Shown in pieces: positions 19,526 to 48,095 of a stretch of 64,000 bases of DNA; the first letter of the stretch is position 1; each line of letters starts with the position of its first letter. Source of the DNA: Dryococelus australis (Eukaryota > Arthropoda > Insecta > Phasmatodea > Phasmatidae); assembly GCA_029891345.1 (NCBI GenBank), contig CM057009.1, forward strand, positions 310,720,166-310,784,165, given 5' to 3'. The notes beneath the pieces were generated by a model. The model saw only the letters and a list, made by a program, of their open reading frames with translations, was not told the origin of the DNA and made no database searches. The position numbers were made by a program, and so were the translations under genes.

Positions 19526-19588
19526 GGCATCAGAATCAGACATCTTCTCAGAACATCACTCTGTTTAATGATTCTTTCATCAGTGAAG
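19526..19588 (+). CDS. Host cassette exon A, glycosylation-site loop
   Basis: Predicted 63-nt exon between acceptor TCTCTGTTTAG and donor G|GTAAGTG. Read with the phase-1 base left by the exon at 1367, it encodes GHQNQTSSQNITLFNDSFISE and again leaves one base. It is therefore frame-neutral and can be skipped or included. Three N-glycosylation sequons (NQT, NIT, NDS) lie in about 20 residues, which suits an extracellular or lumenal loop between the helix coded at 1367 and the helices coded at 60410. A diverged duplicate of this exon lies at 48036-48095. Whether the two are mutually exclusive, both included or one is dead cannot be told from DNA alone. Confidence 0.68.
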
Positions 19589-20375
19589 GTAAGTGCTCAC
19601 CAGATGAAAATGAGTATTACAAATGCTTCATACATAGTCTTGTCATAATTTTGTGACTAAATTCATTTTTCATTATTTATTCATTTGACTAAAGTCATAC
19701 TACATGCTTTTAAATTGTGGTACATGTTAAATTTGCAAATTACAGTATAACATTATAAAAAATATATCCATTATTAAGTTAAATCTAGAGAATATGCTCA
19801 TGAACAATATGTCGCTAATCACTATGAAGCTTGTATAATTATCCATAGGTCCTAGTTTATGATGTAACCCAGATGTCAAGCAATTAACCTTGAACAAGTA
19901 CACACTTTCCATGCATAATACAAAAACAGAAAACAGCTTGAATAGCGACACAGGGGTCAATAGCGACAAACTTTTAAAAATGTTTAATATACTGCTATAC
20001 TATTTTATTACATACATAAAATCATAGTTTATTCTGAGCCTGAAGAGACTTACTGTTATTTGAAGTCTTTTAATCAAAATACATTGCAGTATATTTAACA
20101 GTATTGAAAAATGTTACCATTATTTACTCTGTTTAAGTTAACCATTTAACCTAGGACAGAAAACAAACTAAATGGATCAAGTGGAATATCATCCAAATAC
20201 AGTGAAATCCCCCTTACATACTCTTTCTAACTCTCAATGGAGTGGGAAAAATGTTGCCACATGTAAAAAATATACAAAGAGCAGAAAAATGATAAATATA
20301 GATAGCATAGAACACTGGTTTTAAATTAAAGTTGGCATACAATCAAAGGCTTTAAAAATGGTTTCCAATATTGAA

Positions 20376-20512
20376 ATCTGCCTTCCACTTGTTTTGGCGC
20401 ATCATTATTTTGCGCATGAATAGTGACAAGCAAAAAAAAACAAGACTGAGTGTCTACAGCCAGATTCTACCATCTCCAAATGATACTCTAACCTCACTAA
20501 ACTTATCTAACA
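20376..20512. other. Unassigned interval
   Basis: Short stretch between the duplicated segment and the Tc1 element; nothing recognised. Confidence 0.4.
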
Positions 20513-20514
20513 TA

Positions 20515-21082
20515 CACTATTGACCAAAAAGTAATTGGGCACCCGTGAAGATAGGTAATTCAGTATGTCAGTTGACTTGTGTTTCACAGCCTTCGGAGTA
20601 GGACCGCTGGTGTTTGTCCGTAGTAGCATGAACACAGAGGCCTATTATTAAATTCTGGATGATGAAATGTCTCAACATTGTGGCGTTTTTACGGAATGGA
20701 CCTGTGTTACTTCCAGGATGACAATGCCAGGTGCCATGTTTCAAGGACTAATATGCAGTGGTACGCCGAAAACCATGTTCGCCGATTGAACTGGCCCGCC
20801 CAGAGCCCCGACCTCAACCCTATAGAACATCTTTGGAACAAATTGGATCGCCGCGTGAGGCCTCGTCAGGCACGGCCAAAATCCATTGCTCAATTCATGG
20901 AATGGTTGCAAGAGGAATGGTGATGAATCCCTGTAGATGTCCTGCAAACACTCGTAGAGAGCATGCCAGACAGGGTGGCTGATGTTATAGCCGCAAGAGG
21001 TGGCCCTGCGAAATTCTAACGGGGTGACAACCACCGAGCAAACATTGTGGACAGGTGTCCAATTACTTTTTGGTAGATAGTG
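20515..21082 (+). mobile_element. Internally deleted Tc1-like element
   Basis: A 568-bp element flanked by TA at 20513-20514 and 21083-21084. The terminal inverted repeats share CACTAT..ACCAAAAAGTAATTGG over about 27 positions with few mismatches. Inside, 20678-21020 codes the C-terminal third of a Tc1 transposase: DLCYFQDDNARCHVSR (second catalytic D in QDDNA), RLNWPAQSPDLNPIEHLW (N-P-I-E-H-x-W, third acid), then in another frame PVDVLQTLVESMPDRV and AARGGPA. The DNA-binding domain and first catalytic acid are absent, so the copy is a deletion derivative that would depend on an outside transposase. Confidence 0.88.
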
Positions 21083-21084
21083 TA

Positions 21085-21452
21085 GTTAGAAGTAATATAA
21101 ACTCTCCTTCACCATGTACCACATTAGTCCTTTTTACCAGCTTTATCCTCCAATGGAAGAAATTTTACCAAGTATACAGATAATTGGTTTTATAGAGTAT
21201 CCAAAAATATATTAAGAAAATGTACTCTACCATTGTTTAGAATCATTATAAAAATAATGCTACAAAAGGAGACCACAATAAATACATTCATTAAAATATA
21301 AAGACCATAATACTTCCATGTGGATTAAACAATTTATTTCTTACAAATCTTTGTAAAAGAATTATTCTGCCACAATATGGCATAATTCAGACTTTGTAAG
21401 CTAACGCATTCAGTAGTGAGATGGCAATACGAAAAATACTATATATTTGATA
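21085..21452. other. Intronic AT-rich DNA
   Basis: About 370 bases with no open frame or repeat recognised. It may hold the flank of the Gyp-5 insertion. Confidence 0.4.
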
Positions 21453-22339
21453 TGTGTCGCAGGCCTTCATCACTCCCTTTGCTCTATCCTGCCCAAGAGA
21501 ACGGAGGAATGGAAGTCAGGTGGGAGATAATCCAAGGAGTACGTATCTTGTTTTGAAAGGCTTGCCGCTGCACATTATTCTGCATATTGCAATGATAAGC
21601 CTTTTGTGGCTCGTACGCTCCTGCCCTTCAGAACAATTTCTGTGCTTATGAGAAGGATATTCTGGTTTTGATCATCCTCGCTTTTCTCAGCATGACTCAG
21701 GATGCAGGGAATTTTCCAGACCTTGGCTGCTGAACTATAAAAGTGCAACGGGCCTCCGAGATAGCAGTTGATGAACATCTGAAGTTTGGGCAATTGCATG
21801 ATAAACTATGAACAAGAAGAGCAAGAAAAACCATGGAAGTGACCAGCAGGAGGAAAATCTGTGACTGCAAGCATTGGTGTGCAGTGAAGAGTGTGACTGG
21901 CAGGCTGGAATATTAGACTGTATGCGTGAGTAAAGGACCATTTCAAATGATGGCAACAGACTGAACATGTGTTAATGATGAATGTGAGTTAATTGTCTAT
22001 CACTAAGGATGTAACGATTCCTATTTTTCTCGATTCTCGATCTCAATGTCGATACCACTCTCAATTGTCGATTACAAAAGTTGTGATTCCTTTAGTTACT
22101 TACAATTACTTGACAGAACTAAATATGTACTGTATAGGAGTGTGTGAAATTTAATTATTTAAAATTGGCCTACATTAGAAGTATTAGTAATATAAATAAT
22201 ACAACACTTGAACAGTGGGAGTTTATTTATACGAAAATCCAAAAAGTTCAAAAGAGGCAAATGAGACAATATGAACAGGCACTGAAAACATACATTTAAC
22301 CAAATAACGAAAATCAAAAGTAACACATGCATCACACTA

Positions 22340-24840
22340 AGATCAACTTTCAAACTCATAGATTTTTTTGTAAAAAGACTAGCATTTTCACTCTGTCGGG
22401 GTCCAAACGGTTCTCTTTTTTGTCCACTATGAGCCCAACAATGCTAAAAAGTCGTTCTGAAAACACAGTTGCTGCAGGTGTTATAAGATGTTTTCTTGCT
22501 AGTCTTCTTTCTGGGCAAGTTTTGTTTGTTCTTCCAGTACGTAAGGACATCAGTATCAGGAGGCTTCTGTAGGTATGTTTCAACTTCATCAACTGCTGAT
22601 GAACATACAGCTTGTGAAGAGTTATTTTTCATAATGGCAGAATACAAGTTCCACATGAATTGTGAACCTGACCCTGCTGCTTTTTCCACAGTTTCTACAG
22701 ACTGGAATTAAATTAAAATTACATATAATAATGTTATATAACCAGAGTAGCATGAATTTTAATACATATATTTAGTTAGAACTTTTTTACCAGTTTCTCA
22801 TCTTCTGCACAATTGCTTTGAAAAACTATTTTCTCTGCTTCTTGCTGCAGATAAATAAATCTTTGCAGTGTCAAGATATCTTCTGGTAAATTCTGTTTGC
22901 AAGCTATATAAATTCAGAAAAATTCCTAGGTACTAAGCTATGTTGGTCCTGGGTACTAAACTAATTTGGTTTTGAATACTAATTTAGGTTCCTCCAGCTT
23001 ACTAAACTAAGTTGGTTTTGAGTTAAATTTTTTTTTAAGTGTGTATCAAATCTAATTTAGATTGCTTTTATAAAATAATTTTCCAGCATTGAATGGATTG
23101 GATTTTGAACCTTATGGGTGACTAAACTAGTTTTCCTTGTGTTTGCTCTCATCTAATGTGGATTTCATATTCATCTTTTGTCTTGGGGGTTGTTTTTGGG
23201 ATGTGTGAGTAGCTTAGAAACAATTCCATAAGGATTTTTCTTCGGGATGAATTTTACATAGATTTAATCTATAGTCCATTCCCCATTGGAAGCAATTTTC
23301 TCGGAGTCCTGCTTAATATCTACTTGCAGGCCCGTTTCTCATCTTCTGCACAGTAGCTTTGAAAAACTATTTTCTCTGCATCTTGGTGCAGAGAAATCTT
23401 TGCAGTGCCAAGATATATTCTGTTGGAGAAAACCTTGCCCTTAAAACTGGGATCTATCAGTGTAGCAGCTGTGTAAAACCAGATTTCGTCTACTTGCCCA
23501 TAGCGCATCTTCAAGGTTGCTAGTAAATCATTTACCATGCCTTGTAAACCAAAACCAGATGGTGGAGGGACTTGCAGCTGTTGAAGTATGCTGTTTAATA
23601 TCGGAATTACTTCCGAAATTGCACATATTACTTGAGATGACAGTGAATGTTGTTCTATCGAATAACTGAAGAATATCTGATATGTGCTTCATTAGATCCC
23701 ACTGCGAAGAAGAAAGTTGGGTTGACAATTTTACATCTGATTATGCAAGTACCACTGCCTGCTTTTGCTCAATAAGTATCTATCATGTGCAGGGTTGAAT
23801 TCCATCGCATAGGTTCGTCTTGTACAAGTCAATGGGCCTTACATCCCACTAAAGTTTGGGCTTTCTTTAAGGCTTTGCAAGCTTGCAATGAAAGTTTGAA
23901 ACTGCTTACTATGCAACAAGATTAGTCACAAGTTTGGCATTAAGGAGGCCATCTTTAACTACAAGCTGCAGTGTATGGGTTATACAAGGTAAATGGCCGA
24001 AACCTGTATTTTCTAGACTGAGTGTTAAATTTCTCGCATTGTCTCTTAACACAGCTATAACCTTGTCACTTAAGTGCCATTCACTAATAACTCTGGTCAT
24101 AAAGGTTGATATGTTATCAGCGGTATGACTGATTTCTGGAAAGGGTACAACATTAAAAACTAAGTGTTATAAACCGTAACTGCTGTCTGCAAAGTGAGCT
24201 GTTAGACTCATATTGTCATCATTACATGATGAAGTCCACATATCAGTTGTGAAACTTACATAGTCTGCATCATCTAGTAAACTTTCCACCTTGACTTTTG
24301 TTTCATTGTACATTTCTGGGATCACTTTTGTAGCAACGTAATTCCTTGATGGAATAGTGTACCATGGCTGCAAATGTTTCATCAGAGCTCTAAAACCTCT
24401 GTCCTTCACAATGGAAAAAGGCTGCAAATCCCAGCAAATCATTTTTCCAATCTGCAAAGTTATGTCCTTTGCATGGTGATCACCTGGTTTAAAAAGTGTT
24501 TGTCTCTCAAACATTGATGTGAGAGTTTGTTGAGATGAACGCACATATATATGGGTTTATTTTTTGAAGCTCCATCATCATCTGACCCTTGATTTGAGAA
24601 TGAAGTGTCCTCTTCAGGATACGAAAGAAAAGGTGCAATATTTAAATTGACATGCAAAGATGAAAGTTCAGATGTTGAAGGGCCATCTTCTGTTGGTTTC
24701 ACATCAAGTTTTCGTTTTTTCCTTAGGTACGCAGAATGCTGTGACTCTAGTTGGTTTTGCAGGTTGCTTGTAATATGACTCTTACCATCAACAGATATTT
24801 TTTTTACAGCATATGTTATATACTGCAAAATCTTCATCCT
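22340..24840 (-). pseudogene. hAT transposase (ZBED-like)
   Basis: N to C on the minus strand: 24460-24837 gives an N-terminal region with KSHITSNLQNQLESQHS and an acidic linker. 24167-24544 gives the QPFSIVKDRGFRALMKHLQP, PSRNYVATKVIPEMY and VSFTTDMWTS...MSLTAHF segments, the RNase H-fold start with the D of TTDMW as probable first catalytic acid. 23909-24100 gives DNARNLTLSL and CITHTLQLVV (the C/H insertion-domain motif). 23320-23538 gives AATLIDPSFKGKVF. The C-terminal dimerisation region, 22356-22592, reads LARKHLITPAATVFSERLFS and NRLDPDRVKMLVFLQKNL. It resembles Ac/ZBED-type hAT transposases. A duplication at 22800-23433 and several frameshifts break it. Confidence 0.9.
22800..23433. 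repeat. Internal duplication in the hAT transposase
   Basis: About 100 bases at 22800-22905 (CATCTTCTGCACAATTGCTT...) recur at 23340-23433 (CATCTTCTGCACAGTAGCTT...), including TTTGAAAAACTATTTTCTCT in both. Between them lie about 430 bases containing repeated ACTAAACTAA/GGTTTTGA-like words and no transposase coding. This looks like a tandem duplication later split, or an insertion that carried a flank along. Confidence 0.65.
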
Positions 24841-26256
24841 TACAATTTATTCTAAAATATTCCCAAACCTCACTGGCCATGATAAATGTTGACCAACACA
24901 TGAAATTATTAAAAAGTTTCTAAGAATGGCACAGTAAAAACATGTTATTGTGTTTTACAACAAAATAAATATACTTCTCGTCACATGCAAGTGATAGGCA
25001 CAATTACTGTAGAATGTAGATTGATAATACTATAACAGACTGGTGTATATCATAAACAAAACACAGCTGGGCGGGATTAGGGAATTGAGCCAGGAAAATT
25101 TTGGGCGGGACTGAAAATATATGTTTTACCGCGGGAAAAGGACGAGATTGGGAATGTATCATTTTAATGTTTTAACTTGTTTGTTTGCTTTATTGCACCC
25201 ATAAGATCTTTTCTCAATACATACCTGTACAAAGATATTGGACAAGTTAAATTACAGTATACAAAGTTTATACGCTTAATTTCTAAGGAATTAAAAAAAA
25301 TTACAAATTAATAGCTTTTCACTCGTGCAATAATTTGTTCACTCACATTCGTACACAACAAATAAGCCTCATTCCGCTCGCATAAAATATAAACATGAAG
25401 CTCTGTGATGGTTGTAGTACATAAGAAAATAATTCCGCTGCTGTACAAAAGAAAGATATTGTACATTGTTCGCACACCTGCCGCCGCCGCGCTATAAGTA
25501 AACATTGTTAATCACCATTTTGTGTAACATGTTGCCATAGTGTTGCTTTCTCAAGTCACGTTACCATCTATAGACTAGTAATAGCACAAAGTATATATCT
25601 GATAACATTGTAACATAATTCAAATTTTCTGTCTGAAATGTTTTGTAAGGGAGAAATTGTCTGAATTTATTAGGTTTGTACGGAATAGTAACTTAAAAAT
25701 ATTTACAGGAATAGAAAAATTCTGTGCTGCCTATACTACCAAATCGCAACCACCTATACACAAGTGCTTGTCGAGGGCGACTGAACTGAAGCTACTAAAT
25801 ACTAATTTACTAAATGGTGAATTCGAACACAGCCAGCACTGTTTCATTTTCAGATTATTTCTGCATCTCATAATTTCACACACAAAATAATTTTCCAAGA
25901 GTGATTCAATTACTGGTATAAATCAAGTAATTTTAAATTGTTTTGGAGAGGTGATAGAATATCTATTTGTAGGAATTGTTTTTTAATGCTTTGATTCTTG
26001 GTCTCTCAAATCGTGGAATCGAGTTTGACATCCCTGTCTATCACCAAACAGAGACATTGAGAAGGACTTAAATTAGTTTTGAGAAAGACAGTAAGTACTG
26101 TGCTCATTGAGAAATAAAGAGAGTAATAGTGGAGATAGATTAATGGTGTAAATAATAACTGTGTGAATAAATTAAAATCACATTTAGTTTTTTTACTTTT
26201 ATTAAAGCCTCCATCCCTCACAAACCCGGATACGCCCCTCAGGTGCCTTGTAACAC

Positions 26257-26274
26257 TGGTGTCAGAAGTGGGAT
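26257..26274 (+). other. Gyp-5 primer-binding site
   Basis: TGGTGTCAGAAGTGGGAT, one base after the inferred LTR end. This is a form commonly found as the primer-binding site of Gypsy elements. It anchors the LTR boundary at 26255 and the direction of the element. A similar word, TGTTGTCAGAAGTGTGA, follows the Gyp-3 5' LTR at 41750 on the opposite strand. Confidence 0.8.
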
Positions 26275-26413
26275 AGAGGCATTTAATTGTTAACCAAGTT
26301 AGGCAATAGGGTATTGATTAATGATTTTAAAACAATTATAATTATTTTTAGTAACTGTAGGTTGAAATAATAGTACTCTTTGTACAAACATTGTAGTGAA
26401 TGTTAACTGGAAA

Positions 26414-27700
26414 AATGTCTAAGGAAATGGAAGCACTGTGAGTATTAATTGTGGGGATAGGGACCCCGATGGTTAATGTGAGCAAAAGTGTAGATGGCTT
26501 GAAAGAAGATGAAAATTGCCAAATTAGTAGTGCAAATAGGCAGATAACTAATATAAGTGATTTAGTATCTAAGAAAATAGATAATGTAGACAGGAAAATA
26601 GACATTAAAAGAAAATGTAGACAGGAAAATTGACTCTATAAACAAAAATGCAAATAGGAAAATAGGAGAGATCAGCGAGTTGGTGAAAATGAGTGTTGAC
26701 TCTGTGCATAATAAAATTGACAGTATAAATGAAAAGTGGACAGTGTAAATGAAATGATGGACAATGTAAATGAAATAATAGACAGTGTAAATTAAATAAT
26801 GGACCGTGTAAATGAGACAGTGAACAGTGCAAATGAACGGATGGACAGTGTTGAGAACAAAATGAAACAGGAAATGAGTGTATTGAAGGAGTGGCAGGAA
26901 TTTATTCAGCAACAGAGTGCCACTACCAATACAGCGACCTCGGAGGATAGCCAGCACCTTTGCTGCATTGGTGTCACACAGCCAGGAGTGGGAAAGGGGG
27001 TCTCAAGCCTGCCCCTTATGATGGCCAGACTTCTTGGAGGGAGTACCAAGACAAGCTTGAAACAGTCGCCACCCTGAATGGCTTATCAGCCAAGCAGAGG
27101 GCATACTACCTCACGGCTGTAATGACAGGCCCCCACATTGAGCATACTACAATTTCTGCAAGAGCGACATGGACTGGAGTACCCCACACTGGTGTTGGCC
27201 TTGGAACTACATTTCAGCTATCGATACCTGTGACATACCCACCATGTTCAATTGCGAAGCCGTACCCAGTGACCAGGAGAGCCACTGCAGAAGCTATGGC
27301 AAGATATTGTGCGGCACCCACCTACCTCTGGAAGAGTGCCTTGAGGAGGCATGCGACATCATTGCAGCCAGCTTTTTCATTGATGCCTTCGCCGACACAG
27401 AGGTACAGCAATTGGTACGTGTGGCTACACCCCACAGCACGCAGGACACCCTGGCCCAAGCATTGAAGGTGAAGTCAGCAAAATAGGTGTCTGCACTGAC
27501 GTCGAGTATGGGCAGTGGTGCTGAATGAAGATGACGGTATCAAGAATACACTGAAAAGGATGCAGACATTTATGAGGGACATCGCTTCCAGGATCTGTGC
27601 AACAGAGCTTTGCCGCCCCCCACCTAAACAGCTTGAGTGTTGGTCATGTGGACAGCTGGGATGCCTGAGAGCCTACTGCCCACAACAGTAGCAGCAGCAG
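26414..27700 (+). pseudogene. Gyp-5 gag with coiled-coil and zinc knuckle
   Basis: A likely start is the ATG at 26414 (MSKEMEAL, then a stop). A heptad-repeat region follows (26698-26864), then EWQEFIQQQ. The Gag core is readable at 26990-27480 in two frames: LKPAPYDGQTSWREYQDKLE, TLNGLSAKQRAYYLTAVM and GP, then EECLEEACDIIAASFFIDAF, DTEVQQLVRVATP and LAQALKVKSA. At 27635-27680 LECWSCGQLGCLRAYCPQ is a CCHC zinc knuckle whose His is replaced by Cys. No protease or polymerase is identified after 27700, so the element is 3' truncated. Confidence 0.78.
26698..26864 (+). repeat. 21-bp tandem repeat encoding heptads
   Basis: Eight consecutive units of the form GACAGTGTAAATGAAATGATG, one of them 20 bp long (26719-26738), which breaks the frame. 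Each full unit encodes seven residues, DSVNEMM-like, with Val and Met/Ile spaced 4 and 3 as in a coiled coil. Unit starts: 26698, 26719, 26739, 26760, 26781, 26802, 26823 and 26844. The 26781 unit has a stop (TAA). Looser versions of the unit extend upstream to about 26578. Confidence 0.88.
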
Positions 27701-28180
27701 AGGGAAAAGAAGCAGCGAGATGCAGGTGAGAACACAGAAAATTGTAAAACTTGAGAACACCTATCTTAGGGGGCGAAGATCGGTGACTGATAGAAGGAAG
27801 GCCCCAATGATCTTATACTTATGGTTAATGAAACAGGACTGGGATGCAATGCTGGTGGAGGGGAGCCTGAATGATTTTCCTTGCCAGATGGTAGTAAGAC
27901 CAGATACTGTTGAGCCTTCCTCCCGGACACACTGTTCCGGCCAGTACTTCCAGTACCTGCTTCGTGGACATTTGAGGGTGGTAAGTATGCACTAGATTGA
28001 TTTTCTGCATGGAAAAAGTAGACAACAGTTCTTCTGATTTTTCATTTTCCAGTATAACATGGCTGTGCACCTGTAGAAACATGAACGTACCCACAAAATG
28101 GCAATCGACGGTACTGCAAATCTCCTCCCACATTATGCCGTAATGTGCAATGATGCATACTGTTAAACTCACCATTTAAG
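27701..28180. other. Unassigned end of the Gyp-5 region
   Basis: No recognised protease or polymerase motif. Open frames at 27720-27995 (+) and 27825-28175 (-) lack recognisable domains. The stretch may be remnant Gyp-5 pol. Confidence 0.35.
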
Positions 28181-28950
28181 CGGTCTCTCACACATTTCAG
28201 CCAGTCTTCTTCTACGCCATAATGCTGCAGTCAATGCGTACAGTCGTGTACGAAGGCCGAAGGATCTTCTGTTGGCAGGCCTGCAAAGCCTGGCTGGGAC
28301 TGGAAACGGGCCAACGTGGACACCGGTACCGCTGCTGAGAAACCATGTGGTGGCTGTGTTGTCGTTGTGGCCTGGGTGAGCATGGTGCCATGTGGTCATG
28401 TGGCCATGCAGAGGAGTGGCGTAGAATGCGCCACTGGAGGGGCAAGGGGGGAAGCTCGGCTGCACGTACCCTGGAATGAGCATGGCAGCGGCAGCAGGCT
28501 TGAGTTGCGATGTGCACTGTTGACAGATGAAACACTTGTTTCCAGGATGACACCACTCACTCCTGCTGATGCACTGTTGATGGGCCTGCAGCTGTCACAA
28601 CACGTGAGCTCTGAGTTCATTTCCTGGCAGTGGGCTTGTTGACATTGCTTGTGTTGGTTGTTGTTCGTAGCACTGAATGTAGCTGGTTGAGTTGTTGCAG
28701 AAAAAAACCACAGGTGGGCGTGGCAGTTCCTGGCACGCACACACTGGAAAACGTTTTCGGCATTGACAGTGGCAAGTTCCTGTTGTAATGCACTTGTCGT
28801 GGTACACTCAACGGAACCAAGTGCACGCTTGGCTAAGTCTGTCGCACCAATGCAGGTTGCTGCATTTTCGAATGGTTCTCCAGAATTTGGTTGGTGCACT
28901 ACTTTGAAGTTTCACGGTGCACTTGCAGCTTGCTGTGTTGCGTATGGGGA
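28181..28950. other. GC-richer segment with open frames on both strands
   Basis: This block is markedly more GC-rich than its neighbours and is open for long stretches on both strands, for example 28396-28899 (-, 167 codons) and 28316-28642 (+, 108 codons). None shows a domain I recognise. It may be a decayed retroelement gag on the minus strand, or a high-GC repeat in which stops are rare by composition. Function unknown. Confidence 0.3.
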
Positions 28951-35535: not shown

Positions 35536-35687
35536 TATTTCGTACATTGTCGATCTGACCTTTATTCCAAAACCTCGTCCTACATTCATCAACATCATGC
35601 CCAATGACCTTCACTTGTTCATGTCACCATGCTGTCATGGCCTCAATAACACAGAACAGCCATGACATCATAATACATCATGATACA
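35536..35687 (-). repeat. 3' LTR of Gyp-3
   Basis: 152 bp, about 90% identical by eye to 41751-41902, sharing TTTATTCCAAAACCTC, CAACATCATGCCCAATGACC and GACATCATAATACATCATGA. Its outer end has TA where TG (complement CA) is expected. Adjacent to target sequence GTCTC. Confidence 0.9.
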
Positions 35688-35854
35688 CCATTCCTCTTTA
35701 CAATAAAAGAGATGTTTAAATAATTCTACATATAACCAATAAAACATTATACATCCACATTCATACAACAAGCACCACTACAACAGCAATAACATATTGA
35801 CACTTACATTTTAAAATCCTTACACCATCCTGGTTTTCTAAGAACACAACCACT

Positions 35855-36434: not shown

Positions 36435-36483
36435 GCCATTGGTTTGCGGGTATCTAGGACTTGAAGAAACTTATATCAAAATT

Positions 36484-36969
36484 CTAACTATTAGCAAATG
36501 CCTGAAATTCATAACCTGCAAATGGCACATTATCAGCTAGTATAAATTTAGGTATTCCACAAGTAGAAAATATTAATTTAAGTTTTGCAATACATTCAAA
36601 AGCACTCTTATTTACTACTGGCACAATTTCAACCCATTTAGTCAAATAATCTACAAGTACTAAAAAACTGCTATTCCCAAAATCAAACAAATCAACCCTC
36701 ACTTTTTCAAACAGGAGATGTGGCACCTCATGAGGCATAAGTGTTTGTTTTACATTTGCCCCCCTGTAAATCTCACATGCCTTACACCTCGCTAAAGTAG
36801 CCTCTACTATCTTAGACAAACCTGGCCAGTAAAAAATTTGTTTTAATCTTTTCGTTGTTTTTTCATAACCAAAGTGTGGTGCACGTGCAAAATTTACCAT
36901 TTCCTTCGTAAGACAACTGGGTGGAACAACGTTTCCTTTGCGTATGTTATTTAATTCCTTAAATTCCAA
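36484..36969 (-). pseudogene. Gyp-3 integrase zinc domain and core
   Basis: A 161-residue open frame: ...VNFARAPHFGYEKTTKRLKQ, FYWPGLSKIVEATLARCKAC (the H-x3-H...C-x2-C zinc region, C-K-A-C pair present), KVRVDLFDFGNSSFLVLVDY (first acid), LTKWVEIVPV and FILADNVPFAGYEFQAFA (second acid in A-D-N, family usually S-D-N-G-P-Q-F). The usual G after N is V and the third acid lies in the next, shifted frame. Confidence 0.9.
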
Positions 36970-36980
36970 AAGTATTTAAC

Positions 36981-37565
36981 TTACTCATTAAAAATATTGT
37001 TTTTGCTGCTAGGCCACCCTTGCAAAACATACTGACTTACTATTTTCAACACGTCATCCTTTTTTATTTCGTTCTGAAACTGTGTTATCCTAGTCTCACT
37101 CATAGATACTTCTGTGTTTAAACTATGAACAACCTCGTTGACAGAGTCGTCATGTTCTACCTTATCATCAGCATTATTGCATGCTCTTGACAGCAGATTA
37201 GCCACCCACTTGTTAATTCCTGGCACATACACAATGTTCAAATTATACCTTAACAACTTTAATTTTAACCATTGTAATCTAGGAGTTACTTTATGTACAT
37301 CTTTACTCACTATATTTACAATAGGCTTATGATCAGTCTGCACCGTAAGTTCTAATCCATATACAAACTGATGAAATTTATCTAAATCAAAGCGTATGGC
37401 CAAAAATTTCTTTTCTATTTGTGGATACTTTTCTTCTGATTCAGTAAGCGATCTCGAAGCAAAGGCGACAGGTCGGCTATTCTGTAATAAACATGCACCT
37501 AAAGAAAATTGTGAGGCATCAGCCTGTACTACCACAGGCACTGTATTATCAAACAATTTTAACAC
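36981..37565 (-). pseudogene. Gyp-3 RNase H domain
   Basis: A 194-residue open frame: VPVVVQADASQFSLGACLLQ (first acid), RPVAFASRSLTESEEKYPQI EKKFLAI split by the usual motif spacing, KFHQFVYGLELTVQTDHKPI (T-D-H-K-P), and YNLNIVYVPGINKWVANLLS (family usually N-x-x-A-D-x-L-S-R, here V-A-N). Well preserved apart from the last motif. It continues from RT to the right and runs to a stop just before the integrase frame. Confidence 0.92.
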
Positions 37566-38189
37566 AGGTGCCTCACTAATTTTCTGCTTAATCCTTTGAA
37601 ACGCCGCCGTATGTTCTGGACCTCACTGCAACTACACTTTTTTTTTGTTAAGTCCCGTAAGGGCTTTGTCAACTTAGATATGTTTGGAATAAATTTTGCC
37701 AAGAAATTGACCATCCCCAATGGACGTAAAAGCGCTCTTTTATTTACAGGACCTTTCAACCTGAAATAGGTCTCACCTTTTCCAGATCAGGCCGAACCCC
37801 ATCTGCATCAAAAATTCTACCCAGATACTTCACTTGTGTTACTTTATATTGTAACTAACTAGGATTAAATTTAACACTATACTGCTTTGCTCTCTCCAAA
37901 ACTTCCTTTAAAATATTTCCATGTTCTTCTTCACTAACTGCAGCTGCTATCATATCATCAAAGTAAATACCAACTCCCTAAATTGCACAAAATATTTTGG
38001 TATTATACCTTTGGAAAACCTCTGTTGCAGATGAGACCCCCATGGGAAACCTTTCATATCTATATTTCCCAAATGGAGTAATAAAACAACACAAGTTTTT
38101 ACTATCCTCATCATGCTCAATTTGATGAAAACCATCTTTCATATCTGTTCCAGTATACCATTGTTTACTCGTTAATTTATAACTAAGTT
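37566..38189 (-). pseudogene. Gyp-3 reverse transcriptase, C-terminal half
   Basis: Readable in several frames: GTDMKDGFHQIEHDEDS (first motif after the LTR-C insertion), CCFITPFGKYRYERFPMGVS, then GIYFDDMIAAAVSEEEHGN, the catalytic box with F for V at the second position, followed by VKYLGRIFDADGVRPD and the connection LLRPLGMVNFLAKFIPNISK (37559-37759). Stops in the box and frameshifts inactivate it. Confidence 0.88.
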
Positions 38190-40130
38190 TGATGCCAGCT
38201 AACAGCCAGTGGTGCTAGAGCCCATAATGGTGCTCACCACGCACGTGTCACGTGTCCCACACGTGCGCAAAGAGGCCGATAATTTTGAACTTTCATATAA
38301 ATGTTATTTCCAGTGCCAAATGTGTTCTATTGTACTTGCAGTGATAAATATGCCTTTAAAATGTTTTAAAGTGTATGTACTAACTTTTATTTGTTTGGTT
38401 ATAAAATTCAAAATGTCAGCGGTACCGAGATTTGGAACACTTAATATTCCGGCATGAACGCCGTCATAAAGAGACACTAAGATAATATACAAATTCATAA
38501 GAAAATTATAGAAATGTAAAACAATACTTAATTTAATTAGTGCCATTTTATTTTCAATATAAAATATTTTACACTGCGTGCATAGCACTTCCACTTATGT
38601 GAACCCCGTAGGCAGACATGGTAGGTTCGTGCGACGCTTGTATCTGGAAAGTCTGTCGAGGGGAGCTGGTGATGTAAGACACTGCCTGTATGCACTACAA
38701 CTTTTGTTCACTGATTTAGCTTTCCATAGTTATTTAGTTTACCGATTAACCTTTGCTTGTGTATGTTTCTGCCAGACATTTTCCCCAGCATTATTCTTCC
38801 ACTTTATTAATTTTTTGCACCCTTGTGGCATTTTTAACTTAATTGAGGAGAAGGAGGAGAAATATGTTAGAGAGGTCACGCGACCCACGCAATTTGAATC
38901 AGGCGCCATCGGCCTATGTTTATGGCATTTCATTGTAACTTCTGCATTATTGCTACAGAAAATTTTAACGGCTTAATTTTTATGTATATATTTGAGGGTA
39001 TTTTTCATGTTTGAATATTTTACGGCAACATCATGTATAACCACATGGCCGACCAATGCCAAGTCTTTGTATGTGCCATCATTGCTTTTTAAGAGCTTAT
39101 TTATCTACCATTGCATGTGCAATAATTTATTTCAGGGTTCAATGTATTTTTCATGTAAATTGATGCTTTTTGTACTTGACCACGCGGTCACGTTAATATC
39201 TGATTTTACCGCCATCAGGCATGTTACAAGCCTGCAACCACTTTAATCGTAAAGAGAATAATTTTCTCAGCAAGAATATTATTTTGTCTAACTTTAATTT
39301 GCCATTTTCACGCAGAAATATTGCAATTTCCCCTGCACCACGTGGTCTGCTGTGAACTCATGCAGCGGCATCCGCGCCATCTAAGCTTGTTTTCACACAT
39401 ATGTGTGTTTATTGTGAATATTCATCTCATGTGCCATCTTATTTCATGTATCATTCAAGGGTTTATGTAAGTTCGTAATTAGTGTACACAGCAATTATTC
39501 CCGTCTTAGCCGGCTCTGTGTATAGGCCGTCACCACACTACCCACGTGCTGGAGGGCGAGCCCCGACGAGTTTGTGTTAGTGATGCCGAGTAATCATACC
39601 TGTTAATTTGTATTAAGGGTTTCATTTGTAATTCACCATGTCCTGTCTTCAGGGAAAAAACCATCAGTCCACCCTAGCAGCTGTCGGCCCTCTTCCCTTG
39701 TGAAGGCTGTGCTTTCACGCACTTCGGTGAGGTCATCCATCTAGGCATGCGCTAGAGTAGTTGCGGACTGGGGAGCACACATGTGAAATTGGCTAGTCAT
39801 GACCGAGATAATCATTTCATTGGCACGTTGATGTGTATGAATAATATCAATAAAAACAAGTCTACAGTGAACTTAATTCTTTCATTAAATAGTGACAGTG
39901 TCCTAGTCACATATATTTTATTCAGTGTTTATTGCAGTGTTGTTTAGTAATTAGTTTAGTATTGCCAACGTGTTTGTAAGTACGCACGGGTGAGACGGAT
40001 ACACAAAACCCACAGCATCCCTGAGAACCCTGAGTCTCAATAGTGCAGTGATTGGGAAGCACCGCTGGCGCCCAAATTACCAGTAAGTATTTGTGTCATC
40101 GTTTGTCTCGTGTCTCACTCAATGGCGTCA
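38190..40130 (+). mobile_element. LTR-C copy 3, inside Gyp-3 reverse transcriptase
   Basis: 1941 bp, plus orientation: starts TGATGCCAGCTAACAGCC, ends AATGGCGTCA. Perfect 4-bp target duplication AGTT at 38186-38189 and 40131-40134; taking out the element and one AGTT restores the Gyp-3 RT frame across the join. Features: three CACGTG sites at 38242, 38249 and 38260; AATAAA at about 39847-39852; GTAAGT at 39976 and 40083. The 132-codon open frame 38578-38976 has no recognised domain. TG...CA ends, a 4-bp duplication and a late AATAAA suit a long solo LTR. Confidence 0.8.
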
Positions 40131-40134
40131 AGTT

Positions 40135-40933
40135 CATCAACCTTAGGTAAAGGGAAAATTTTCTGTCTTAACACAATTATTAGGGAAATAGGGATCGAAA
40201 CAAATCTTAAAAGACATCAGATTTTTCAACTACCACAATATTATGCACCCAATCAGTTACTTTATCCACCGTACTTATAATACCTTTGCTTTACAATGTA
40301 TCTGATGTTTCTTTGGCTTTGCTTTTATTATTTCAGCACTCTCCTATTGGGATTCGCTACAGCAATAATATTTTCCTTTAATTCAATATAATATCTCCCT
40401 CGATATGTCCCTATCCCTTCAAAGTGAGATTTGTTTTCCAATAAGAATGCTTGTTTTGTACTACAACACATTGTATCAATGACCCCATTGTTAATAGTTT
40501 CCTCATGCCTCGGTTTCACTACTTTACTGATTAAGTTTAATTTAACACATGCGTTCAAACCCAATATTGGCATTGCATTTATATTTACAATTACAAATTT
40601 TATTTTGTACTCATTGCCCCTAGCTACACAGTTGCTAATAATGCATCCCAATGCTTTAGTTTTCTCATTATTGTAACCGACCACATTAATATTACACTTT
40701 ATTATATTTGCCCTTGAAAATCCTAATTCTTGGAAACTCTTCAGTGGAAACACATTACACTCAACTCCTAAATCAAGTTTACATACAACAGCGTGTCTAT
40801 TAATACTTACAGATTCAATCCACTGCAGTTCCTTTTCCTTACATAAAGCACTTATAAAATATTCTTCTCCTAAACCATCAGCTTTTAAATTACCAGTATC
40901 ACTGTTCCTTGCAACCCTTGTTTTGCAACACAC
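40135..40933 (-). pseudogene. Gyp-3 protease and start of reverse transcriptase
   Basis: 40328-40933 is a 201-residue open frame: ...VVCKLDLGVECNVFPLKSFQ is the aspartic protease site with L-G-V in place of T-G-A, then NINAMPILGLNACVKLNLI (the I-L-G-x-x-x-C end of the protease). 40135-40327 gives, in shifted frames, DWVHNIVVVEK and FPLPKVDEL, the start of RT. The active-site substitution makes the protease doubtful. Confidence 0.85.
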
Positions 40934-41187
40934 AGCAAAGTGATTTTTCCCTTTACATTTATTACAAATTTTGCTGTATGCAAAACATTTTCTCCAAACA
41001 TGAGATCTGTTGCACTTTTTACACTTGAACGATCACCACTGTAGAAACTCGTTGAATCACTTGTGTTTAATTCTCTTCTATCTTCTATTCCCACTCTACT
41101 TGAAGACGTTACCTCGTTAGGCCTACTTGCACGAACAGCCATTACGGCAGGCACTTTAGGTTCCATCTTCAAAATGTTCTGCTGCAA
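40885..41187 (-). pseudogene. Gyp-3 nucleocapsid region
   Basis: The 100-residue open frame includes the linker between Gag and protease. In a neighbouring frame around 40900-41030 Cys-rich text occurs (CKKCNRSHVWRKCFAYSK and CNKCKGKNHFAVCCKT), consistent with one or two CCHC-type knuckles. It overlaps the end of the capsid frame at 41169. Confidence 0.7.
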
Positions 41188-41696
41188 CTTGCTAAGCTCA
41201 GTCTACACATCTCGACAGCTTTGTCTAAACAGATATTGTTTTCATGCAATAACCGCTGCTGCACTGTCGTGTCTTGAATTGCAATGATGATTCTGTCCCT
41301 AATTAACGAGTTTTCTTGCTCTCCAAATTCACAGTTTTTCGCTAATTTCTTTAAACAGTTCAGAAAATTATCAAAAGATTCACCCTCTTTTTTTTCTGTC
41401 ATAAAAAATTGATGTTCGACAACTACATTCATAGGTGGTTTAATATAATCTTCAAATGCTTGTAGTACGCCTTTTAAGGTTACTTTCGACGTGTCCAATT
41501 TAAAACTATTGTAAATATCCAGAGATTCATTCCCTATACAGTTCAAGAACATCACCACTTTCTTCTCTTCTGTTGCCGTGTAATTTCCCGATGCTGCCAT
41601 AAAAATCTGAAATTTTTGCTCAAAATTTGTAAAGTTGTTTAGAGCATGTTCATTTAGCACCAGTCCATTAGGTGGTTTCCAGTTGTCCATCTTCAA
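41169..41696 (-). pseudogene. Gyp-3 gag (capsid)
   Basis: A 175-residue frame from the ATG at 41696: MDNWKPPNGLVLNEHALNNF, NFEQKFQIFMAASGNY, KVVMFLNCIGNESLDIYNSF, VVEHQFFMTEKKEGESFDNF and LIRDRIIIAIQDTTVQQRLL, a well-preserved retrotransposon Gag (the W-x2-F-x4-Y and E-S-x-x-x-F spacing is standard). It ends where the zinc-knuckle frame starts. It begins about 55 bases inside the 5' LTR at 41751. Confidence 0.9.
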
Positions 41697-41750
41697 CTTA
41701 TTTCTACACCTAGACTAAACTTATAAATGTTTATCACACTTCTGACAACA

Positions 41751-41902
41751 TGTTTCGTACATCAATCTGACTTTTATTCCAAAACCTCATCCTTCTAAAT
41801 TCATCAACATCATGCCCAATGACCTTCACTTGTTCATGTCACCTTGCTGTCATGACCTCAATAACACAGAACAGTCATGACATCATAATACATCATGATA
41901 CA
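41751..41902 (-). repeat. 5' LTR of Gyp-3
   Basis: 152 bp with TG...CA ends, containing an AATAAA (minus strand, near 41772-41778) and short CATGA-rich inverted words. Its inner edge abuts the primer-binding site TGTTGTCAGAAGTGTGA; its outer edge abuts target sequence GTCTC at 41903. Confidence 0.92.
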
Positions 41903-41907
41903 GTCTC

Positions 41908-42760
41908 AGTTCGGCACCTAACCCATAGCTACTGGCACCACAGGTTAGCACTACTGGAAATTCTGGCCCGTAATGTGCTAACACTGTTTTGGAGGTTAAT
42001 ATGTTTTTTTTATTTTCTGGAAAGCATCCTCACATGAACTAGATAAGAATCATTTGGCCTCCTTCTTTAACTAGTCATATTTTGGCCTTAATATCAATGA
42101 CATGTTTGGCACAAATTTTGAGTAGTAGTTGATTGAGCCTAAAATAGCCTGCAACTGGTCAATATTTTGAGGGTTTAGTCCCCGAACAATTGCTTCTACC
42201 TTTTTATTGCCCATGTGAAACCCATCCTGGTCAATTACATAACCCAAAAATTTAATCTCAGTTTCCAGAAATTCACACTTATGCAACTGTTAAGTAAACC
42301 CACAATCCTGAGGTCGTTCTAACACCTGATCTTGCGTTCCAATACCTCTTCAGTTGTTTGCCCACTGATTAGTATGTCGTCAATAAAAACAATGGTACTT
42401 GGAATACCTTGAAGTACCTTTTCCATCTCCCTCTGGAACCAACTAGGTTCTAATGCTACCTCATATACAAGCCTTTGGTACTCGTATATACCCTTATGCA
42501 TTTAAGTATTTAATAATGGTCTACTCTCCTTACTTAGTTGCACTTGATAAATAAAGTCTCACAATTTTTTTTGCACTATTCAGTGTGTTCAGTTAAGTCA
42601 TCTACTTGAGGCACAAGGTAATGATCAATTACCAAGGACTTGTTAAGTGTAACTTTATAGTTTCCCTCCAGTCTGACAGTCTTTACCCTTTCACAATTGG
42701 GATTATTGGTGTCCCCCAGTCTTAGTTGTCTACTTTCCTTAGAACTCCCATTGCTACTAA
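41908..42760 (-). pseudogene. Gyp-2 reverse transcriptase
   Basis: VEKEIARLVAMGVLRKV and DWGTPIIPIVK (about 42660-42770), then 42319-42501: ...YEYQRLVYEVALEPSWFQRE, MEKVLQGIPSTIVFIDDILI (catalytic F-I-D-D). 42071-42286: HKCEFLETEIKFLGYVIDQDGFH and LQAILGSINYYSKFVPNMS, the thumb and connection. The end at 41920-42000 shows VLAHYGPEFPVVLTCGASSY, the RNase H start that resumes at 35535. Frames shift at least three times. Confidence 0.88.
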
Positions 42761-42805
42761 CCTAGCAATTTCTTTTTCAACTTTTTTTTTCAAGACATAT
42801 AGTGT

Positions 42806-43463
42806 TTAGTATGGCTGACAAAATAAAGGTTTAGGGTTTTCCCTCAATTGTAGCTTAAGTTCACTTTTTTTCAACAACCCTAACTTCTCTGTGTAAACGT
42901 TTGGATATTTTGCAGTTAAATTTTCAAGTACGCTAGCCTTTGATACAATGTTATGCATGCTTATTGTGAGCCCAAATGCCTTCATCTGAATTCTACCAAA
43001 CAATGGTTTGGTTCCCCTATTTTTAATAACATGTAGTGTCAACATTTTTTTGGGTCCATTTTAAACATTACTGACACTTCAAAAGTGTCTACAAATTCAA
43101 TTGTTTCACCAGAAAAGCTTTTAAAATTATATTCTGGTTTGGTTAATTTTCTATGCCCAAAAAGCTTTTAAAATTATAATCTGGTTCAGTTAATTTTCTA
43201 TGGCCAAATTTTTTCATGTATAATGTATCACTTATAGCTGAGACACTTGACCCACTACCAATTTCAAACACACACAGCTCATCCTTAATTTTTACTTCCA
43301 CCTCAAAATTATCAGTACCTTTACCTGCAGTGCACCTTGCTGTTTCTGTGGAACTGTTCACATTTAGCAGATAATAAAAGCAATCTTCTTCCTTGCTCAC
43401 CTCCTGCACTGTTGACTGGTTTTGTTGAACACACCTTGGCCAGTGTTCCATTTGTGACGGCAC
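42806..43463 (-). pseudogene. Gyp-2 protease and Pol N-terminus
   Basis: 43143-43463 includes FEVEVKIKDELCVFEIGSGS and SVSAISDTLYMKKFG, the aspartic protease with E-I-G-S in place of D-T-G-A/S. 42806-43045 follows with LLTLHVIKNRGTKPLFGR-like text and KYPNVYTEKLGLLKKSELKL and PKPLFCQPY, the region before RT. A 46-bp duplication (43113-43158 and 43160-43205) disrupts the protease end. Confidence 0.82.
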
Positions 43464-44262
43464 TATTTTGCCCCTGTCGTGTATTGTTTGAACATTTTAT
43501 GTTATTTATTTCCGCACTTGAACTGCCCTTCGAAGCACTTCTACGCACATTTTGCAAGTGTCCTTTTTTTCCACAATTTCGGCAACTGTAGTTTTTGTAC
43601 TTACATTGATAAGCTAGATGGTTCACCTTACCACACATGAAACATACCTTAGACTGAGTTTTAGGTAGAGGTTCCAGTTTCTTTTTCTGTTTCGGTTCCA
43701 CCCCGGTTTGTTATTCTTGTGTATAATTAATATCCACTTCTTCATGCTTATTGCTTGTATTCATTTCCGATACTTCCCTAATGGACATCTCAAAAGCTCT
43801 TGCTATCACAATGGCCTTTTCATATGACAGCTTTGGCTCCCTTAGTCACATTTTTTTATTCCTATATCACTAATTCTACAAACTAGTTGGTCTCTGAAGG
43901 TTTCTTCAAGGTTTGTAAATTTACAAGTTAAGGATAAACATTTTAAATTTTCAATGTATTTCGCAATACATTCCCCTGGCTTTTGTTTTCTTTCCTTGAA
44001 CTTGTATCTTTCCATCACCTCTGAGGTTTTTGGGTGTAGGTGGTCTTTCAAAATTTTCCACAATCTCTTGAAGTGATAATTCTGGTGGTTTCTTCTGAAG
44101 GCATAGGTCACGTAGCAGCATATATGCATCGTTGTCTAAGAGTGTTAGCAATATTGGTACCTTTTTACAATCACTCATTTCATTTGCCATGAAATATTGT
44201 TCCAGTCTCTTGCACCATATTTCCCAATCTTTATCTTTTATTCTAAACAGCCCAAAACTAGA
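43464..44262 (-). pseudogene. Gyp-2 gag with zinc knuckles
   Basis: 43842-44262 carries the capsid in two frames: DKDWEIWCKRLEQYFMANEM, VPILLTLLDNDAYMLLRDLC, then KERKQKPGECIAKYIENLK and CKFTNLEETFRDQLVCRISD. 43560-43660 reads CFMCGKVNHLAYQC and CRNCGKKGHLQNV: two zinc knuckles, the second having lost its last Cys. The upstream end is lost where a hAT-like terminus begins at about 44255. Confidence 0.87.
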
Positions 44263-45241
44263 GTTGTTCCGATACCATGTTTTCCGATACCGATACCCCG
44301 ATACCACTGCCAATACCTCGATATCAAAAACAGATACAAATGTCCTTCACAATGAATTTTAGAAAAAGTATTACTGTTAATAATATATTAAAAACATTTT
44401 TCCTAGACTCATTAAAATAAATAAATGATGTCTTAAAATACTGTATATAATTTATTGTAATCCAACACAAAATGCAAGCTGACCTAAAACTTTCAAACGC
44501 TCTGAAAATGCAAATAATATGGCAACAAACGCAAGTCAAATTTTAAATGTCCCGCATGCACTTTCAGCTAACAACGCACGGAGAAGTTATCGATCAGGCA
44601 GTGTCATGTCTGTTGGTTTATGTGGATTGGGGAGGAGGGGGGGATGACAGCTCCATGCCGCTACCTGTTGGCGACACCTTGCACATGTGGCAAATGTCTG
44701 TCTTTTAAAGGTAATTAATCATATTTTACTTCAAAGAAAACATGTAAATTTGAAACACAAATGAGGCTATTATGAGTGAGATCTTCACTATCTTTAATAA
44801 TTAATAATTCAAAACCCCGTCCTCTGATTTTCCCTGTCATGAGTTACACTGCACTCGGCTCGATGCTTACCTATCCATTATTAGACGGCAAAAGGTGTCA
44901 AATAGGCAATTGATATAAATCCTGCAATTTCCCCGCAAGAAGTTACTGAAAATGAACACTTATAATACAAGTTACTCGATGTTCAAACAATTTTTTGCTG
45001 ACAGGTGGTAGTTTATATACTTTCAGGCATATAGTTTTATTCGCGAAGATGGTGCCCTTTGAGTTAAATAAATATTAAGTTTTAAATTCATGTTAATTTT
45101 AGGCCAGATACAATGAAACACCAACCTTACCGGATAAAACAACCTCTTAACACAAACGAAAACATCTTTACAAATAATAATTCCTCGTCAAAATGTTTTG
45201 CATAACATTTTCAGGGGAACCATTTGCTTTGAAATACAAGT
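44255..45241. other. Probable hAT-type fragment and unassigned DNA
   Basis: Starts with a TAGAGTTGTTCCGATACC terminus followed by repeats of CCGATACC, a pattern like the hAT ends at 22004 and 48310. No matching opposite end was found before 45241; the element may have been truncated by the LTR-C piece. The remainder holds no recognised gene. A G-rich run lies at 44630-44645. Confidence 0.45.
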
Positions 45242-45489
45242 TGACGCCGGCTAACAGCCAGTGGCGCTCACCACGCACATGTCATGTGTCCCGCACGTGC
45301 TCAAAGAGGCCAATAATTATTCTGAAGTCCCACATAAATATTATTTTTTCAGTGTAAAATGTGTTATATTGTATTTGCAGGGTTTAATATGTCTTAAAAT
45401 GTGTTCAAGTGTTTGTTACTATTTTTAAATTGTTTGGTTATAAGATTCAAAGTGCCCGCGGCATCGAGATTATGAACACTCATATTCCG
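45242..45489 (+). mobile_element. LTR-C, truncated 5' fragment
   Basis: Begins TGACGCCGGCTAACAGCC and follows copy 3 (38190 onward) for about 250 bases, up to the AACACT(T/C)A(A/T)TATTCCG word, then changes abruptly into a mariner relic. One CACGTG-type site remains (near 45293). Confidence 0.85.
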
Positions 45490-45960
45490 CTTTGTCACTT
45501 TGAAAATGCTGACCGGGCAGGGATTTCTCGTTATGTAAGAAAAGTTGGCAATTATTGGGAGATATGTGTTTGGGTGTCAGGTGCCAGGTTCTTCAGCACC
45601 AACCGGGCACACAACTTCCGGACAAACGGTTGATGTGCGACAATTTTGTGTAACAATGATTGGAATATCTGTGGGAAATGGCTGCTGAGTTCCGTAATCA
45701 TGAAGCTTCAGTTCTTCACAAAGAGCTGCCACACAAGCTCCACAAGGTCTTCGTTAATGAGGGTGAACTTCCCACTATGCTACTCATTGTGGACATTTTG
45801 ACAACCTTCAGAAAATTTTCTGAACCGACGATGCACCACTTGCATGCTCATGAAGTCCAGCCCATACATGTAATTCAGATGACAATGATTTTGACCAGCC
45901 TCACATTCTGCACATTCAAAAACTTATCACAAAACTAATCTTACAGTTAGAGGGAGACAA
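45490..45960 (-). pseudogene. Mariner transposase N-terminal relic
   Basis: On the minus strand, VVHRRFRKFSEGCQNVH, then LINEDLVELVWQLFVKN, a stop, SFMITELSSHFPQIFQSLLH and KIVAHQPFVRKLCARLVLKN. This matches the paired helix-turn-helix region of mariner transposases (family: S-x-x-F-P-x-x-S-R-S-x-L-Y...K-L-C-A-R-W-V-P-K). The catalytic domain is not present. It joins the LTR-C fragment at 45489. Confidence 0.75.
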
Positions 45961-46894
45961 TCAGTGAGCGAGTGAGTGAAGAGATTTGGGTAGCTTTTAA
46001 CATTGCAGATGGAGACAAAATGAGTGCTGACATTTTCAGACTCTACTAAGGCGATACTGCGAGCGATTGGGGAGTGCCAACTGTCAAATATGATCACCAC
46101 TTCCTCACTCCCTCTGGTATGCGCACTCACATTTTTTTCTTCAATGTATGGCCTGCATGTGTTGGCGATGCAGGAAACTTACTTTCTGGATGAGTTACTA
46201 TTTTGATACAATACATGTAGTGACTATATAGTATTTGTGTTAAGCATTTGCACATAGGTAAGAAATTGAATTTATTATCATACAAATTTAGTTATTTTAG
46301 TAAACAAAATCCCACTGTTTTTCTTTCACAGCATCATAGGACACACTTCAATGTTGGATGTAAATAAAAGACGTACGTGATAACTTCACTGCCTTAGGGT
46401 GATAATGTTAATATTAGTGGGCATTGTTATTGTGGTTAAAAAATTTTCAACAAATATATATATTTTTGGCTTCTAAAGCAAAGCAATGTCAATCTAATAT
46501 TTTTTACTGAAGTCTACACAGTCTGACATAAATGTGGTAAAATTTTGACACATACTTGCATTAGTCACAGAGTTGCACATTTTTTGCTTACACTTTCTAG
46601 TCATCAAGATAGATTGTTGATATGACACATGTGTACTTTTCATAATTTAAAAATAAATTTTTTCAGAAACTATTTGGCCTAGAGAGAAAAATTTGTGGCA
46701 TAGCTTCACAACTTGGTGATAGTAGCAAATACAAAGAGTTTCATTACAATATGAGATAGTGGGTGTCATTTCTAAACTTTTCTGGTTGATCTGATGTTGA
46801 ATGACTGTGTTGCTAGTAAAAGTATTTCCACAGAAAGGTGGTGGTTTTTTTTTTTTTTTTTTTTTTTTTTTCAAATAAAACAGAAATATATATT
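45961..46894. other. Intron-like DNA with simple runs
   Basis: No recognised gene. 45961-46200 has open frames without domains. A run of 27 T lies at 46845-46871, directly before duplicated segment B, and may be a poly(A)-type tail on the minus strand. Confidence 0.4.
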
Positions 46895-47649
46895 TTGTTA
46901 TGGAACAAAATAAATAATTTTTAGAGATAGTAATACAACTTTCTAAAATGTGATTACAACAAAACCTACAAAACTTACTGTTTGGGGGGGGGGGGGATAT
47001 AATTTTTTTTTTTACTTGCATGACTATATATGGCTTTGTTGAGAATATTAAACTATTCAGAAAGCTGTCCAGTCAAATAATATTACAGATTAAATACCTG
47101 CTATCAGCCATAGTTATTCTAAACTTTAGGATTTCCTTTAATATTTTCAAATCCTCTGACTTTTTTTTTCTTTTTCTAATATTACATGCCTGTGGCAAAC
47201 CACTGAAAAAGGTATCAAAATTCCCCGGGTTTTCAAAAGTACTGATAGTCTTTGGGCATTACAAAGTATGCATTACCACAAAACCTATTTCTTTACAATC
47301 CTTAATGACATTTGCTGCAACCATATTTAAATTAGATAAATAATAATTTTACAGCTATATTGTAAAAATGTTCTTTTTAAAAAAAGGCATGAATTCGAAG
47401 TATAATATTGTCTGTATGATTTTTTGGAATGCAATGTTGAAATTAATTGGAACACTAGAAATTCTTCACACGTTTCATTAAATAGTTTTAGTACAAAAAA
47501 TTAAGGTCACTGAACAGCCTAAAAGTGATGTCAGTTAAGAAGGAATTAAGGTGGAGAAACCTGTGCATATATATTTTTAAAATACTTGGTCAATACACAA
47601 TATAAATATGTACAGACCAATTTCTATTTAAGTTAAACACTAACCTTTA

Positions 47650-47887
47650 TAGGCTGTTCATGGTAAAGTGAGCACTTTTTAAGGCCCTTATAAATTTTTC
47701 CTTTCATCCCATTTTCATCTTCCTGCTGCTTTTTAATATAAACATTGCAATGTAACCAATAAACACAGTGTACACATTTCACCACCACTGAAATTTAATG
47801 CCTGAGGCTGCAATAAAATATATTTATTAGCAGCTAATGCCTGTTGGGAGAGTCGTAAAAAGTGCCCACTTTATCGTGAACAGCCTA
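47650..47887. mobile_element. TA-flanked MITE in copy B
   Basis: 238 bp, terminal inverted repeats TAGGCTGTTCATGGTAAAGT and (complement of right) TAGGCTGTTCACGATAAAGT, continuing as GRGCACTTTTTA for about 32 bases. TA duplications lie at 47648-47649 and 47888-47889. Copy A has the empty site (CTTTAATACTATT near 19380). Non-coding. Termini and TA target fit a Tc1/mariner-type MITE. Confidence 0.92.
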
Positions 47888-48035
47888 TAATACTATCTGT
47901 ATGATGTACAAAGTGATTCACTATTTGTGAAGGCAAAATTATAATCATACACTTTATTCCCACCTATTTATTTCCTTAATCATTAGTTTGTTTATTACAT
48001 TGTGGAGATTAAAACATGCTCATTTATCTGTGTAG

Positions 48036-48095
48036 GACTCCAGAATCAGACGTCTGCGAACATCACTCTGATTACTGATCCTTCCATCAATGAAG
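48036..48095 (+). CDS. Host cassette exon B, glycosylation-site loop
   Basis: Predicted 60-nt duplicate of exon A, between acceptor TCTGTGTAG and donor G|GTAAGTG. In the same phase it encodes GLQNQTSANITLITDPSINE and leaves one base; it can replace, accompany or be skipped with exon A without frame change. Sequons NQT and NIT are kept; the third (NDS in exon A) is lost and a Pro introduced. It is three bases shorter than exon A. Aligned over 60 bases there are 11 differences, only two of them synonymous. Splice sites remain intact even though introns around it have taken several insertions. Confidence 0.68.

Follow-up and report, generated by a model that had tools for sequence, protein, structure and literature searches.

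In Dryococelus australis, we found two homologous exons, A and B, lying between the same two exons of a gene that probably encodes an MFS protein. The window, that is, the whole stretch of DNA that was analyzed, comprises 64,000 nucleotides (C17:310720166-310784165 in a 3.415-Gb assembly). The exon duplication is old and real, and tandem exon duplication is a kind of event already known. With a probability of roughly 55%, we favor the reading that A is a working loop exon and B a little-used or decaying old duplicate.

Anatomy of the duplicated exons

The two exons and their neighbors could be read directly from the window as follows.

1367..1469, plus strand: TM1-like exon (NLIHIAMSAFSILLGQAAGISYYFVKYYAEVEMK), ending in phase 1; from sequence, translation and splice-site scores
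19526..19588, plus strand: exon A, 63 nt, phase 1-1, three sequons
48036..48095, plus strand: exon B, 60 nt, phase 1-1, with two sequons and, relative to A, an in-frame gap of 3 nt
60410..60607, plus strand: exon coding TM2 to the start of a TM4-like segment, 198 nt, phase 1-1

A first-pass annotation had described A and B as homologous, frame-neutral, phase 1-1 exons with AG and GTAAGT sites, each fitting between the exons at 1367 and 60410. Our reanalysis agrees on every one of these points; both exons are open, and each joins 1469 to 60410 in frame. Its sequon counts were also right: exon A translates as G-HQNQTSSQNITLFNDSFISE with three sequons (NQT, NIT and NDS), and exon B as G-LQNQTSANITLITDPSINE with two (NQT and NIT). 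Both exons have an AG acceptor and the donor AAG/GTAAGT. In splice-site scoring, the donor of exon B is identical to that of exon A, and the acceptors score 5.56 for exon B versus 5.84 for exon A. The join from 1469 to 60410 is also in frame with both exons skipped or both included.

Homology between the exons is far beyond chance, the block holding both of them having 334 identities in 428 columns (blastn, E = 1e-96). Between the exons themselves, 50 of 60 aligned bases are identical, with one 3-nt gap. This similarity does not exceed that of the adjoining downstream intron (52 of 62) and is little above that found upstream, with 98 identities in 123 columns.

The host gene and the position of the loop

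We regard the host gene as probably coding for an MFS protein, judging from a weak match to Pfam Sugar_tr. Because this match lies below the curated cut-off of 22.3 bits, the gene is classed as MFS-like only and not as a member of Sugar_tr. Joined to the TM1 exon and exon 60410, exon A gave 19.1 bits (E = 6.6e-4) and exon B 19.2 bits (E = 6e-4). The score was 17.4 bits without a cassette, 17.6 bits with both cassettes and 16.4 bits for exon 60410 alone, the comparison using a 120-residue piece of a 12-span family. The NCBIfam sugar-porter model gave 14.7 bits for the spliced product (cut-off 237.8), and a PDB search returned 0 matches at E up to 10. Since the B join aligns to positions 16-115 of the Sugar_tr profile as a single stretch, the cassette exon would most likely occupy extracellular loop 1, which links TM1 to TM2. 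The earlier picture of frame-neutral, sequon-bearing homologous exons in a multi-span membrane protein thus holds, with extracellular loop 1 as the most likely place according to this weak Sugar_tr match.

An upstream exon ends 87 bases before the first base of the window and joins exon 1367 in phase 0. About 100-700 bases before window base 1, this exon carries a long glutamate/glycine-rich repeat (units like GEASGIGEAS), and such an N-terminal tail before TM1 is odd for a transporter. Two candidate exons lie downstream of the window.

C17:310844620-310844808: TM8-9-like exon, assigned solely by its reading, its phase and a weak match to GLUT1
C17:310894714-310895034: terminal exon with stop, assigned on the same three grounds

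Together with exons 1367 and 60410, these two span about 174 kb, and all four have an open frame and usable splice sites. The two downstream exons alone had no MFS match in Pfam, and exons for about TM4-7 were not found, the coding sequence in hand being partial. When 264 kb were searched by tblastn with a human GLUT1 query, no exon stood out clearly apart from the terminal one, itself at just 23 bits (E = 4.6), and exons 1367 and 60410 were not picked out among the best 40 matches.

The terminal exon also has copies near C17:230.0-230.3 Mb, about 80 Mb away, which form a partly decayed family on the same chromosome.

C17:230010513-230010833: terminal-exon copy (the four listed are 65-76% identical)
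C17:230311156-230311467: terminal-exon copy
C17:230235701-230235955: terminal-exon copy
C17:230085184-230085470: terminal-exon copy

A threshold of E = 1 gave 11 matches; besides the exon itself, five of them reach E = 1.4e-10 or better at 65-76% identity, and three of these five contain stops. Compared with two of its copies, the terminal exon has dN/dS values of 0.55 and 0.69, which suggests that at least one lineage was constrained; the ratios do not tell which one.

The gene resembles the SLC2/GLUT sugar porters (Sugar_tr) in having TM1, a sequon in what would be extracellular loop 1, and then TM2-4; an excerpt of PMC4592010 places the N-glycan of GLUT4 in the first extracellular loop. It is unlike them in that the Sugar_tr match reaches 19 bits versus the cut-off of 22.3, the later exons have no Pfam MFS match, and exons 1367 and 60410 escaped the best 40 tblastn matches of the GLUT1 query. 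Another difference is the loop 2-3 motif, here MRMHGLLR, which is degenerate. Our literature search found no insect sugar-transporter paper on mutually exclusive exons, the one paper that came up dealing, by its listing, with walnut flower buds.

Extent and spacing of the duplicated unit

The copies extend well into the intron.

18351..20369, plus strand: copy A of the duplicated unit, exon A plus its flanking intron; matches 46884-50271 in blastn blocks of 74-79% identity
46884..50271, plus strand: copy B, interrupted by insertions; blastn blocks versus copy A

The alignment directly delimits a copied unit of about 2 kb, consisting of the exon plus surrounding intron, in blocks of 683, 121, 428 and 540 columns at 74, 75, 78 and 79% identity. 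The interval at about 48310-49745 in copy B is without homology to copy A save for one 43-column piece. Copying of the exon only was rejected because the intron flanks were copied too. DNA queries around exon A found at least four genomic places (A, B, a third copy A' and a short fragment next to B), and those around exon B at least three.

The first-pass annotation had ascribed the distance between the copies to transposons, and this was supported in part.

36484..37622, minus strand: retroelement pol fragments between the copies (Pfam: integrase zinc-binding, RT RNase H)

At 36.5-37.6 kb, we found an RT RNase H match (36981-37622, minus strand, E = 2e-27) and an integrase zinc-binding match (36484-36975, minus strand, E = 4e-11), and repeated families are also present in the sequence separating copies A and B. 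The retroelement remnants agree with insertions having pushed the copies apart.

At least four copies of a dispersed repeat of about 1.9 kb, in both orientations, and a shorter piece occur within the window.

4022-5908: dispersed repeat, about 1.9 kb
38176-40131: dispersed repeat
54866-56812: dispersed repeat
58276-60125: dispersed repeat
45242-45489: shorter piece of the repeat

A partial copy of the gene elsewhere

The third copy of the cassette lies on the same assembly sequence, outside the window.

C17:286575773-286576372, minus strand: A', third copy of the cassette, matching exon A with its surroundings at 88% identity over 601 bases

A' belongs to a partial copy of the 5' part of the gene, 24 Mb away and in inverse orientation, which holds the upstream exon end, the TM1 exon and exon A'. 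This copy includes C17:286574273-286577872 among other loci. Its colinear pieces match window positions 9770-24077 at 85-92%, and the neighborhood of exon 1367 is present at 91%; the 91% identical copy of exon 1367 itself has kept its frame and splice sites. This partial copy looks broken, because A' has an in-frame TAA stop, the end of the upstream exon measures 44 instead of 54 nt ahead of the donor (by eye), a 10-nt shortening that shifts the frame, exon 1367 and its copy differ by 7 replacement and 0 silent changes, and no second significant match to exon 60410 was found. Over 53.6 kb of the partial-copy region, we saw nothing colinear with exon B's own position.

Of four genomic matches to exon 60410 at E up to 10, one is significant and the rest have E = 2.46 or more; for the neighborhood of exon 1367, the partial copy is the sole additional place (2 of 2 matches). 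The idea that the entire gene was duplicated in tandem, so that A and B would belong to different genes, is therefore not supported.

Substitution rates and simulated intactness

Changes were counted in a three-way alignment of A, A' and B over blocks 18690-19021, 19378-19795 and 19837-20369, with 18351-18689, 19265-19385 and gapped columns excluded. In the 60 exon columns, 1 change is private to A (synonymous), 5 are private to A', and 9 fall on the B branch plus stem. The 1186 flank columns gave 47, 85 and 181 changes, respectively, with 22 three-state columns. One A/A' difference in the exon sits in the 3-nt gap of B and was left unpolarised. The neutral-like rate on the B-plus-stem branch is a direct observation: the exon changed in 9 of 60 columns and the flanks in 181 of 1186 (Fisher p = 1.0). 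Exon B shows no detectable constraint and its branch changed at the flank rate, the numbers being small. Eight of the nine exon changes on this branch replace an amino acid. Between A and B, 7-8 replacement differences in about 46.7 sites and 3-4 silent differences in about 13.3 sites are about neutral at this size. Constraint on exon A is not proven, the 1:5 contrast with A' being too small for significance and not different from 47:85 in the flanks (p = 0.66).

In the flanks (window 18690-20369), copy A has fewer private changes than A' (47 vs 85, p = 0.001). The A:A' counts are level upstream (21:21) and stand at 10:29 in the core that surrounds the exon and at 16:35 downstream. Intron constraint, conversion between A and B, or a faster rate in A' are possible causes of this difference.

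How often neutral drift would leave an exon like B intact was simulated with an indel rate of 47 per about 1717 flank columns. The single indel of exon B is 3 nt long, whereas only 7 of the 47 flank indels are multiples of three, a proportion that the simulation adopted. At the measured rates, the open frame and GT-AG survived in 9-27% of runs, and together with two sequons in 5-18%; under wider settings, the ranges were 7-56% and 2-40%. Because neutral drift leaves such an exon intact at these frequencies, the intactness of exon B is weak evidence of use. Should exon B be unused, it would be a warning that an open frame with GT-AG says little for short exons.

Search for competing RNA pairing

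If mutual exclusion were mediated by RNA pairing, the arms would be expected to be conserved. Our search covered exact pairing in one species. Within the unit, complementary arms conserved in both copies numbered 5, 1 and 0 pairs at k = 7, 8 and 9, and the shuffled means were 5.1, 0.98 and 0.23. No complementary match of at least 12 bases was found between the duplicated unit and the left, middle or right intron; matches of 10-11 bases to the left and right introns were above the shuffle mean and within the shuffle maximum. Docking/selector-like pairing did not exceed chance.

Alternative readings

In the reading that we prefer, an old event would have duplicated one phase 1-1 exon with about 2 kb of introns in a large-intron, MFS-like transporter gene, the copied exon presumably coding for a sequon-bearing first extracellular loop. 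Copy A would most likely be the working loop exon. Copy B, with splice sites and open frame retained under drift at the intron rate, would most likely be little used or decaying. It may be spliced in occasionally, which would be harmless since inclusion is in frame. We infer that the gene is expressed and uses exon A, with B playing a minor part. This reading is supported by the duplication of the introns, by a B-branch exon rate equal to that of the flanks, by the about neutral differences between A and B, by simulated intactness without selection, and by the single polarised, synonymous change of exon A versus five in the broken, stop-bearing A'. Several observations count against it. Exon B keeps its splice sites, an open frame and two sequons with only a 3-nt indel, all of which survived together in 5-18% of simulations; its donor equals that of exon A and its acceptor scores almost as well; and the 1:5 contrast of exon A is no different from that of the flanks.

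It is possible, though clearly less probable, that A and B are genuine alternative loop exons, probably mutually exclusive, whose isoforms differ in sequons and loop chemistry. The pair shows similar length, the same phase and splice-site type, and homology, which an excerpt of PMC3228551 gives as criteria predicting mutually exclusive exons. The intron flanks are duplicated, as excerpts of PMC6071210 propose for the creation of competing structures in such clusters, and exon duplications within genes are common according to an excerpt of PMC9013439; with the tandem duplications and mutually exclusive exons in these three excerpts, A and B share homologous neighbors, similar length, the same phase and duplicated flanks. 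The open frame and two sequons kept by exon B (5-18% under neutrality) also fit. By contrast, the pair differs from the mutually exclusive exons surveyed in lying 28 kb apart with transposon insertions, in being known from genomic sequence alone, in the drift of exon B at the intron rate and in the competing RNA structure, which was not found. The B branch is without constraint, conserved complementary arms are not in excess of shuffles, no intron match reaches 12 bases, and steric exclusion between exons is unlikely at a spacing of 28 kb. The use of A and B as alternatives, as first annotated, is so far unsupported, exon B having no detectable constraint and the exons being conserved no better than the flanking intron. 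We find it rather doubtful that a pair as widely spaced as 28 kb swaps the glycosylated loop 1 between three- and two-sequon forms, with B diversifying and not decaying.

That A and B are both included or both optional, the loop varying among 0, 20-21 or 41 residues without exclusion, seems unlikely. Every join is in frame and the Pfam scores are 19.1 (A), 19.2 (B), 17.4 (none) and 17.6 bits (both), but scores this low do not discriminate, and positive evidence is none. Very improbable is the idea that the host gene itself is dying and that neither exon matters. Its family match is below the cut-off, no PDB entry matched at E up to 10, partial copies elsewhere are broken and the introns are transposon-laden; nevertheless, four exons are open with usable splice sites across about 174 kb, and the dN/dS of the terminal exon versus its copies (0.55 and 0.69) suggests constraint in at least one lineage.

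Significance

Were A and B both in use, a single transporter gene would produce two outer-loop glycoforms by splice choice, and the pair, separated by over 28 kb of transposon-rich intron, would test the working distance of such exons. Should B prove unused, the locus would offer a small, datable record of an exon that was duplicated and then drifted, the dead third copy serving as the yardstick.
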